DNA from: Thermoplasmata archaeon
GTDB taxonomy: Archaea > Thermoplasmatota > Thermoplasmata > Lutacidiplasmatales > UBA184
Direction of reading: 5' to 3'
DNA length: 34,276 bases
Assembly (NCBI GenBank): GCA_030037735.1
Contig: JASHQC010000078.1
Location: forward strand, 1 to 34,276
This document shows, one piece after another, positions 6,439 to 18,771 of this stretch. A program made the translations under genes and the position numbers. The notes beneath the pieces are model-generated. The model searched no databases. It was not told where the DNA came from and worked only from the letters and a program-made list of their open reading frames with translations. The stretch's first letter is position 1. Every line of letters begins with the position of its first letter.

Positions 6439-6451
6439 CCCGCCGCAAGAA

Positions 6452-6527
6452 TGGGCCCGGGCGGATTTGAACCGCCGACCGACCGGTTATGAGCCGGTCG
6501 CTCTGAGCCGGGCTAAGCTACGGGCCC
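6452..6527 (-). tRNA. tRNA with CAT anticodon; probably tRNA-Ile2 (agmatidine type) rather than elongator Met
   Basis: GGGCCCG TA GCTT...GAGC G ACCGG CTCATAA CCGGT CGGTC GGCGG TTCAAAT CCGCC CGGGCCC A: complete cloverleaf, no encoded CCA; GGGCCCGUAGC 5' end is Ile2-like. Confidence 0.9.
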
Positions 6528-6542
6528 ACCCGGGTCGGAAGG

Positions 6543-6645
6543 CGCCGCCGAGCGGATTTTCAGCTCGGGCGCACCCGCGCCCGACCGTTTGAACCGCTGA
6601 CCTTTCGGTTAACAGCCGATCGCTCTACCGCTGAGCTACGGCGGC
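6543..6645 (-). tRNA. tRNA-Asn (GTT) with 31-nt T-loop intron
   Basis: GCCGCCG TA GCTC AGCGGTA GAGC G ATCGG CTGTTAA CCGAA AGGTC AGCGG TTCAAA-[intron 6587..6557]-T CCGCT CGGCGGC G; mature 72 nt, discriminator G. Confidence 0.9.
6557..6587 (-). other. archaeal tRNA intron (BHB type) at T-loop position 59/60
   Basis: Removal of CGGTCGGGCGCGGGTGCGCCCGAGCTGAAAA restores TTCAAAT T-loop and AGCGG/CCGCT stem; BHB = TTCA/TGAA 4-bp helix flanked by AAC and AAT bulges. Confidence 0.85.
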
Positions 6646-6671: not shown

Positions 6672-7070
6672 CTAATAGCCTTTCGGACCGGAGGACGATT
6701 TTCCCTGGTGCGCGCTCGCCTTCTGCTTCAGTTGCTGGACGAGCGTAGACATCCGGTCGAGCGATTCGTCGAGCTGGATCCAGAACTGGCGGGCCTTGTC
6801 GGTCAGCATCGCCCCCTCGGCTGACGGCTGTATCACCCCCTCCCGCTCCAGCAGATGCAACGAATAGCGCACCTTGTGGATCGGGAGGCGTAACGCCTCG
6901 CTGAGGCGGATGATCCCGAGGGGGTTCTTGTCGCCCAAGCGCTCGAGAATCTCGACGTTCCGGGACAGGAGGTCGAGCTCGCTCGCGATTCGGTCGACTA
7001 GCTGCGTTCCTTCGGCGAGCGGAGCGCCGTCGAACTCGGAAGTGCGAGGACTGGATTTCCCAAAGGGCAT
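6672..7070 (-). CDS. winged-helix HTH transcriptional regulator
   Basis: ORF 6672..7085; EILERLGDKNPLGIIRLSEALRLPIHKVRYSLHLLEREGVIQPSAEGAMLTDKARQF is a typical wHTH; ATG at 7070 likely. Confidence 0.75.
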   Translation of the reverse strand: MPFGKSSPRTSEFDGAPLAEGTQLVDRIASELDLLSRNVEILERLGDKNPLGIIRLSEALRLPIHKVRYSLHLLEREGVIQPSAEGAMLTDKARQFWIQLDESLDRMSTLVQQLKQKASAHQGKSSSGPKGY

Positions 7071-17067: not shown

Positions 17068-18771
17068 ATGGCGGACCGAGCCAAGCACCGCCGCGGGGCT
17101 GACATTGGACGACCCCGGGTGACCGCCCTCGTCCTCGCCGCCGGCACGTCGTCCCGGATGGGTCGGCCCAAGCCGCTCGTGCCGATTCTGGGGCGACCCT
17201 TGCTCGCCCGCGTGCTGGAGACGGTCCGCAGCATCGACCCCGCGGAAACCGTCGTCGTGCTCGGCGCCGACGCGGAACGAGTCCGGGCCGGCGTCGACCT
17301 GCGGAAGGCCACGGTCGTGGTGAATCCGGAGTTCGCAGAAGGGATGGGAAGCTCCCTTCGCCATGGAGCGGAAGCGGCGGCCTCCTCGAAGGGTCCTCTC
17401 CTGGTGGTCTTGGGGGACCAACCGTTCGTCGAGCCCGCTACGCTGGAAGCGCTGATCCAACGACACGCCGCGGGTCAGGCCAAGGTCCTGATTCCGACCT
17501 TCGAGGGCGTTCGGGGGAATCCCGTCCTCTTGGACCACGCCGTGATACCCGAGCTCGGCTCCCTCCACGGCGACATCGGCTGCCGGGCGCTTTTTCCCGG
17601 CCATGCCGCGGACCTGGTCGAAGTGCCGGTGACCGACCCCGGAATTCTCATCGATGTGGACACCCCGGATGAACTGACCCGACTCGAAGAAACGCTTCGG
17701 GGTTCCTCGTCACCGACCCCGTCGGCGCTACGGCCGCTCGTGGCCGACCGGGTGGCCCTCCATCGCGAGGGCCCGGTGCGGGGGTTCGCTTCGCGAAGGA
17801 TTCTTCCGGACATGCTCAGCCTCGCCACCGAACTCGAACGTGCCCGCGAACCTTTCGCCCTGGCCACCGTGGTCAGCGTCCAGCCCCCGACCTCCGGGAA
17901 GCCCGGCTTCAAGGCGATCATCCGGCCGAACGGGGAGGTGACCGGATGGGTCGGCGGGAGCTGCTCGGGGCGAGTCCTGGTGGCGGAAGCGCTTCAGTCC
18001 CTACGGAATGGCCAGCCGAAGCTCATCCGCCTGTCACCCGACGCCGAGGAGGGAGGCACGCCCGCGCCGGGAATCGTCTCCCGCCGTCTTGAATGCGAAA
18101 GTGGAGGAATGATGGAGATCTACGTGGAACCGCACCTGCCCCAACCCGATCTCGTGGTCGTCGGCGACGCCCCGGTCGCGAAGGCCGTGGCCGCCCTGGG
18201 AGGCTTTCTCGGGTTCCGGGTCACCGTCGTGGCGCCGGGCGCCCGGACCTCCGACTTCCCGGACGGGGTGCGATGGGACCCCGACCTGGAGCACCTGCCG
18301 AAACTGGTGGCGCCCGGGAGTTTCGTGGTCGTGGCCTCGACGGGCATGTACGACGAGACCGCCCTCAAGGGAATCCTGCCGCGCTCCCCCCACTACGTCG
18401 GGTTGGTCTCGAGTCACCGGCGCGGGGCGGCGGTCTTGGATTCGCTGAAGGCAGACGGCGTTCCGGCGGACCAGCTCAGTACGGTCCACAGCCCCGCGGG
18501 GATGGACATCGCGGCCCGCGATCCGGAGGAGATCGCGCTCAGCATTCTGTCGGAGATCACGAAGGTGCGCCGGACCCCTCCGCTGCCGGCTCCCGAAGAG
18601 GATGCCACTCCCGCGTCAACGGCCCCAGCCTCCATCGACCCGGTCTGTGGGATGGAGGTGGAGGCCTCCAGCCCGCTGCGCACCGCTCACCACGGCGTGG
18701 TCTACCGGTTCTGTTCCGAGAGCTGCCTCGCGAAGTTCCGCCGGACCCCGGCCCGGTTCGTGTCCACCTAA
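17068..18771 (+). CDS. three-domain fusion: MobA/MocA-like nucleotidyltransferase + XdhC/CoxF + C-terminal YHS domain
   Basis: VTALVLAAGTSSRMGRPKPLVPILGRPLLARVLETV (NTP transferase); SGGMMEIYVEP...HSPAGMDIAARDPEEIALSILSEI (XdhC); DPVCGMEVEASSPLRTAHHGVVYRFCSESCLAKF (YHS). Confidence 0.9.
   Translation: MADRAKHRRGADIGRPRVTALVLAAGTSSRMGRPKPLVPILGRPLLARVLETVRSIDPAETVVVLGADAERVRAGVDLRKATVVVNPEFAEGMGSSLRHGAEAAASSKGPLLVVLGDQPFVEPATLEALIQRHAAGQAKVLIPTFEGVRGNPVLLDHAVIPELGSLHGDIGCRALFPGHAADLVEVPVTDPGILIDVDTPDELTRLEETLRGSSSPTPSALRPLVADRVALHREGPVRGFASRRILPDMLSLATELERAREPFALATVVSVQPPTSGKPGFKAIIRPNGEVTGWVGGSCSGRVLVAEALQSLRNGQPKLIRLSPDAEEGGTPAPGIVSRRLECESGGMMEIYVEPHLPQPDLVVVGDAPVAKAVAALGGFLGFRVTVVAPGARTSDFPDGVRWDPDLEHLPKLVAPGSFVVVASTGMYDETALKGILPRSPHYVGLVSSHRRGAAVLDSLKADGVPADQLSTVHSPAGMDIAARDPEEIALSILSEITKVRRTPPLPAPEEDATPASTAPASIDPVCGMEVEASSPLRTAHHGVVYRFCSESCLAKFRRTPARFVST

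Follow-up and report, generated by a model that had tools for sequence, protein, structure and literature searches.

The 31 surplus nucleotides in the T-loop of a tRNA-Asn(GUU) gene from an uncultured acid-soil archaeon (Thermoplasmata, Ca. Lutacidiplasmatales) are very probably an archaeal tRNA intron spliced by EndA, belonging to an old, lineage-wide expansion of such introns in a family whose EndA would have to accept an A-G pair at position 57. The gene was read on the minus strand (6645..6543) of the window, that is, the whole 34,276-nt stretch of DNA analysed here, which is contig C105 of a 1.77-Mb, 112-contig assembly that is 85% complete (G000). The lineage bears out an earlier sequence-only reading, in which the genome was called apparently euryarchaeal.

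The tRNA-Asn gene and its insert

The gene spans 6645..6544 on the minus strand, with the discriminator base at 6543, and its features and those of its immediate surroundings are the following.

6588..6645, minus strand: tRNA-Asn(GUU) 5' exon, 58 nt (sequence; start of the RF00005 match at 6645; ARAGORN after splicing)
6613..6611, minus strand: anticodon GTT of tRNA-Asn (sequence)
6598..6594, minus strand: 5' strand of the T-stem, AGCGG (sequence)
6593..6588, minus strand: T-loop TTCAAA, end of the 5' exon (sequence)
6557..6587, minus strand: T-loop intron, 31 nt, at tRNA position 59/60, with an 8-bp hairpin TCGGGCGC/GCGCCCGA (sequence, T-arm fold, 24 other distinct orthologous introns)
6587..6593, minus strand: 5' half of the bulge-helix-bulge (BHB), with central helix TTCA at 6593..6590, bulge AA^C at 6589..6587 and predicted cut 6588/6587 (geometry common to the T-loop introns examined)
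6556..6562, minus strand: 3' half of the BHB, with central helix TGAA at 6562..6559, bulge AA^T at 6558..6556 and predicted cut 6557/6556 (geometry common to the T-loop introns examined)
6544..6556, minus strand: tRNA-Asn 3' exon, with T60, T-stem CCGCT and acceptor CGGCGGC; discriminator G at 6543 (sequence; splicing restores the tRNA)
6672..6683, minus strand: promoter-like AT-rich box AAAGGCTATTAG at -38..-27, overlapping the stop codon of the upstream reading frame (conserved columns, 25 loci)
6451..6528, minus strand: intronless CAU-anticodon tRNA, called tRNA-Met, in tandem directly downstream (ARAGORN; Rfam, 65.5 bits)

Excision of the insert leaves a tRNA with the acceptor GCCGCCG/CGGCGGC, the T-stem AGCGG/CCGCT and the mature loop TTCAAA/T, the insertion falling between T-loop positions 59 and 60, as it does in 25 tRNA-Asn genes and in other isotypes. 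The T-arm folds into the T-stem, a 4-pair central helix (TTCA/TGAA) with two 3-nt bulges on opposite strands (AAC and AAT), and an inner hairpin, in which a G-G mismatch separates the 8-bp helix from a G-C pair adjoining the central helix. Both flanking helices of the BHB are present, which places the precursor outside the relaxed BHB class (hBH, HBh' and BHL, where one flanking helix is missing), and the exon order is normal, the 3' half not lying upstream of the 5' half, so that the gene is not a permuted tRNA. The A runs permit shifts of the exact cut points, and it is the BHB geometry that picks 59/60. The sequence-only reading had described this intron, its position, its full BHB, the T-stem, the acceptor and the inner hairpin, and the minus-strand letters agree with it exactly; its statement that excision restores a tRNA is corroborated by ARAGORN, which calls tRNA-Asn(gtt) once the 31 nt are removed. 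The mishandling by gene finders that it had also foreseen holds for ARAGORN, which on the unspliced window misses tRNA-Asn and calls only the neighbouring CAU tRNA, and in part for Rfam RF00005, which reports a 36-bit tRNA that begins at 6645 and ends inside the intron at 6576; it would probably not extend to tRNAscan-SE 2.0, built to detect such non-canonical introns (PMC8450103). The tRNA counts of Lutacidiplasmatales MAGs therefore depend on the gene finder used.

A pattern scan for tRNA-Asn with this intron returned 26 records, of which 25 bear the title Thermoplasmata archaeon and one that of 'bacterium'. Among them, AcS11-62, AcS5-34 and SubAcS10-22 are Ca. Lutacidiplasmatales MAGs of PMC9287336, the main text of which holds no word starting with 'intron'. 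The 25 distinct tRNA-Asn genes of the lineage, including that of the window, carry an insert of 29-35 nt in the same place and retain 5/5 T-stem pairs. Across 20 T-arms from 12 isotypes, the cells of the BHB and inner helix are paired in 92.1% of cases vs 65.7% in shuffles, cells with double changes number 74 vs 27.5, and slid controls pair in at most 58.2% of cells; the rows are related, so that the shuffle counts are not probabilities, and more weight falls on the slid controls and on the range of isotypes. Because 25 orthologues share the place of the insert with full T-stems and the helices covary, the insert is not a chance occurrence, and the tRNA-Asn intron is, judging from this conservation, orthologous and under selection. 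Two side observations may be added: the 'bacterium' record (JAKBKR010000004.1, 'bacterium isolate DX1.bin10') carries an archaeal tRNA-Asn with the intron, and its label looks wrong; and in another family (G047, contig C24) a tRNA-Asn has an ordinary T-loop but extra bases 3' of the anticodon (CTGTTAACCATGCGCAGTTACCATAAGGTC), a different intron position.

Upstream of the 25 tRNA-Asn loci, the AT-rich columns -38..-36 and -32..-28 are conserved against a GC-rich background, and the box that they form is a putative promoter. Downstream, a tRNA beginning GGGCCCGTAG is found in 24/25 loci; the two genes (6451-6645 in the window) form a conserved pair, the CAU-anticodon tRNA lying within ~45 nt after tRNA-Asn in 24/25 Lutacidiplasmatales loci.

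Two other accounts of the insert may be weighed against these data. The gene could be a dead copy broken by insertion, with another tRNA-Asn doing the work, as the blindness of ARAGORN to it and the draft state of the genome (85% complete) would allow; this is extremely improbable in view of the shared insert position in 25 orthologues with intact exons and covarying helices, and of the conserved AT-rich box upstream. A second, intact tRNA-Asn, which the sequence-only reading had named as the observation that would speak against it, was looked for, and no other GTT tRNA, intronless or otherwise, is present among the genes found in G000, where assembly gaps could still hide an intronless copy, or in its 5-contig relative G029. 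The RNA could also function unspliced, its T-loop bearing a permanent hairpin extension, since the T-arm and hairpin fold stably on their own. Such an extension would, however, break the contact between D-loop and T-loop, while the loop retains the letters TTCRA and T60 of a normal T-loop, the genome encodes EndA and RtcB, and the 4+3 / 4+3 BHB geometry is maintained with GAA (or GGA, GAG) complementary to TTC, which a mere extension would not need; this account is likewise hardly credible, and a spliced intron remains the preferred reading.

T-loop introns in the family and the phylum

The intron of tRNA-Asn is one of many. T-loop introns occur in 12 tRNA genes of G000, seven of which are Asn, Ser(GCU), Arg(UCU), Arg(UCG), Gly(UCC), Glu(CUC) and Ala(GGC), while the other five, missed by the Rfam tRNA search, were found with a tRNA model built from family genes: Lys(UUU), Gln(CUG), His(GUG), Ser(CGA) and Leu(UAG). 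In-silico splicing turns all 12 into valid tRNAs, Leu(UAG) requiring removal of a D-loop intron as well. A family census with a T-arm-only model identified 6-14 T-loop introns, at the same position, in each of 37/37 sampled genomes. The geometry is 7x7 in all introns examined, the fourth pair often being A-G in relatives, and of 80 loci retrieved from relatives and other families, 79 can be read as a tRNA interrupted in the T-loop by an intron, a few multi-intron genes among the parsed loci receiving a wrong isotype, or none, from ARAGORN. Since the same position is used by 12 genes in G000 and by 6-14 in each sampled family genome, T-loop introns are an old, inherited, lineage-wide expansion in the Lutacidiplasmatales family; the 59/60 intron singled out as noteworthy by the sequence-only reading is thus real, but no lone oddity. 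The age of the trait within the family follows from how widespread certain introns are: Ala(GGC) and Ser(GCU) genes with T-loop introns are present in G000 and in all seven family genomes with fetched hits (the single-locus G012 excluded), and an Asp(GUC) gene with such an intron is present in 7/7 fetched family genomes, although not found in G000.

The relative G029, a near-complete sister MAG (5 contigs, 94% complete), allows a fuller inventory. Of its 32 tRNAs found by Rfam, 30 were read, and intronless Asn, Asp, His, Ala(GGC) and Ser(GCU) are absent among those 30, the versions with T-loop introns being present. As the T-loop-intron genes are the only Asn, Asp and His genes found in this genome, they would have to be spliced, with the proviso that an assembly 94% complete could still miss an intronless copy. 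Its 13 T-loop-intron genes, next to roughly 25-27 others, amount to an estimated third of its tRNA genes.

Two tRNAs of G000 carry an additional D-loop intron.

G000 contig C16, 4301-4439: tRNA-Lys(UUU), with T-loop and D-loop introns
G000 contig C81, around 17400-17503 and upstream: tRNA-Leu(UAG), with T-loop and D-loop introns

The D-loop intron of Leu(UAG) has a BHB-like arrangement of its own (CTC-GGCC-AAT ... GGCT-TCC-GAG), and similar double-intron genes are seen in G029 and G010. Elsewhere in G000, an identical tRNA-Cys with identical upstream sequence lies on contigs C5 and C97, by duplication or assembly overlap, and the locus C23:16538-16636, called Arg(tcg) with a 22-nt intron by ARAGORN, has an acceptor and D-arm that look like those of tRNA-Glu(UUC) with an anticodon-loop intron.

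Recent copying of introns between tRNAs was considered and rejected, similarity among the 12 introns of G000 averaging 0.49 vs 0.40 in shuffles, with a maximum of 0.71. This bears on the idea of Randau and Soll that such introns spread by breaking the attachment sites of tRNA-targeting integrases, a proposal that concerns the cause of the spread and is compatible with splicing. It is the 3' portion of tRNA genes that archaeal viruses use for integration, a protective role has been suggested for introns (PMC3293823), and position 59/60 falls within that portion; the introns are, however, diverged and without recent copies, and as the driver of the expansion the proposal seems doubtful.

For the phylum as a whole, 390 sampled genomes were scanned with a model (R3) trained on a diverse set of introns, and 92 of them have one T-loop intron or more; filters are stricter in scans that cover more than 40 genomes, so that these counts are lower bounds. 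A distribution restricted to the family, seen with the previous model (R2, trained on GC-rich family introns), was dropped once R3 matched across the phylum, and the recurrence of the T-loop position throughout Thermoplasmatota also runs against the statement in the sequence-only reading that 59/60 introns are known mainly from Thermoproteales. Many members of family f8 have one T-loop intron, always in Arg(UCU) in the 4/4 read, and in these small genomes it seems fixed, while no T-loop intron was found among the listed members of f19. In family f3, of the same order, genome G038 gave twelve T-loop matches; of the 12 read, 11 are 13-14 nt and one is 26 nt long. The short introns of G038 always have TTCA/TGAA and are almost devoid of an inner helix, the ~6 nt left for it making those of f3 look BHL-like. 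Several T-loop introns of G038 lie in genes that also bear anticodon-loop or D-loop introns, and its tRNA-Arg(CCG) appears to have three introns. Elsewhere in Thermoplasmatota, then, T-loop introns are sporadic, with a second expansion in the sister family f3.

Splicing enzymes and the position-57 pair

Each family genome with a hit encodes one EndA gene with two PF01974 units, and two genomes gave no hit. The family protein, of 355 aa, can be aligned for most of its length to 5x89 and to the A. fulgidus alpha'2 EndA, and sequence comparison identifies it as a single fused alpha'2-type protein. At the CSL/ASL insertion site it reads AYGSRIGSRLELSL, with no insert, where the A. fulgidus construct 3p1y has extra letters; the short form is found in 30/30 Thermoplasmata EndA proteins examined, and catalytic-type motifs in 29-30 of the 30. 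The host therefore has no (alpha beta)2 or epsilon2 EndA with a CSL/ASL loop, and typing of the enzyme, suggested in the sequence-only reading with relaxed-specificity forms in mind, gave one fused alpha'2-type gene instead. Three states are specific to the family: E219 and Q326, where most other proteins have Q and H, respectively, and the S of the YG[K/S] motif, which is usually K. RtcB was detected in 5/5 genomes tested, with a PF01139 match at E=7.8e-171, so that both EndA and a tRNA ligase are encoded.

Transcription, cleavage and ligation of the tRNA-Asn precursor can be predicted from these elements, through what would be an ordinary mechanism involving EndA and RtcB. In the precursor, the T-stem would act as outer helix and the intron hairpin as inner helix, and loop bases 54-57 (TTCR) would pair with the end of the intron in a 4-pair central helix, flanked by two 3-nt bulges. 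Cleavage by the single fused alpha'2-type EndA would fall after the second of the three bases in each bulge (AA^C and AA^T), and ligation of the exons by RtcB would yield the sole tRNA-Asn found. Such a scheme would oblige the family EndA to accept A-G instead of A-U at position 57.

The fourth central pair links tRNA base 57 to an intron base. Outside the family, it is A-U in 22 cases, G-C in 17 and A-G in 1; inside, it is A-G in 55, G-C in 20, A-U in 11 and other in 8. A·G accounts for 55 of 73 A57 cases in the family vs 1 of 23 outside (Fisher p about 1e-12), and family A57 faces G in 55 introns and C in 4, although G hardly exceeds C in frequency in these introns (p about 6e-12), these p values being descriptive, since the rows are not phylogenetically independent. 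Family G57 faces C in 20/21 introns. In the 25 tRNA-Asn genes, collected with patterns that leave the partner base unconstrained, it is G in 15, U in 6, C in 3 and A in 1. Four isotypes, Asp, Gly, Arg(UCU) and Asn, each show both states, and base and partner change in step, A57 mostly with G and G57 with C.

It could be argued that A-G merely marks a lost fourth pair, with G there by composition, the introns being GC-rich and one outgroup case also being A-G. That is unlikely given the 55 to 4 preference for G over a nearly as frequent C, the 20/21 pairing of G57, and the joint switching within four isotypes; a competing C-G pairing with the 5' bulge, tried as the cause of the G opposite A57, is possible in just 10/55 cases. 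The statistics rather suggest that A-G at position 57 is a real pair and a recognised feature, and the covariation of base 57 with the intron offers a ready-made substrate-specificity experiment.

Comparison with known splicing systems

No report of this T-loop intron distribution or of the A·G pair was found in openly licensed papers. According to reviews, the alpha4 or alpha2 EndA limits Euryarchaeota to canonical introns, and an extra EndA loop permits the rest (PMC4090602, PMC6379350, PMC12397907). The full BHB is the motif that alpha'2 enzymes are known to need, and the departure from the reviewed rule lies in the position and number of the introns and in the A-G pair. Tentatively, the family may represent a third, independent route to many non-canonical introns, in which an alpha'2 EndA without CSL/ASL, marked by E219, Q326 and the S of YG[K/S], recognises a non-Watson-Crick A-G formed by base 57 with the intron as belonging to the BHB; if true, this would detach intron expansion from loop acquisition.

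The closest parallels in the introns themselves are the non-canonical tRNA introns of Thermoproteales and other Crenarchaeota/Thaumarchaeota, which are short, lie outside 37/38, including in the T-arm, form a BHB and number up to three per tRNA (PMC8450103, PMC3218864, PMC4033280). Those of Lutacidiplasmatales resemble them in length, non-37/38 site and junction, whereas the expansion studied here uses one position, 59/60, and the enzymes differ: the hosts of the former have a heterotetrameric (alpha beta)2 EndA, with a CSL loop in Crenarchaeota, and Lutacidiplasmatales a fused, loop-less alpha'2-type protein. The euryarchaea with alpha'2 enzymes (A. fulgidus, T. acidophilum, Ferroplasma) resemble Lutacidiplasmatales in EndA architecture and in having a full BHB (4+3/4+3), complete with its two flanking helices. 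Introns of alpha4/alpha2 euryarchaea are stated to occur at the canonical position only (PMC4090602); euryarchaeal introns are described as single, at 37/38 and in <10% of tRNAs (PMC4090602), in contrast to the 12 genes with T-loop introns in G000, two of them also with D-loop introns. Korarchaeum cryptofilum, described as the only alpha2 archaeon with non-canonical introns (PMC4033280), combines the two traits as well, but its EndA is said to bear a specific loop that Lutacidiplasmatales EndA does not have. The permuted tRNAs of Thermofilum pendens and Cyanidioschyzon merolae use the same 59/60 junction (PMC3218864), with swapped halves, unlike tRNA-Asn with its normal exon order. An acid-soil order in which T-loop introns interrupt about one tRNA gene in three, and whose alpha'2 EndA has no extra loop, provides a natural test of the reviewed rule.
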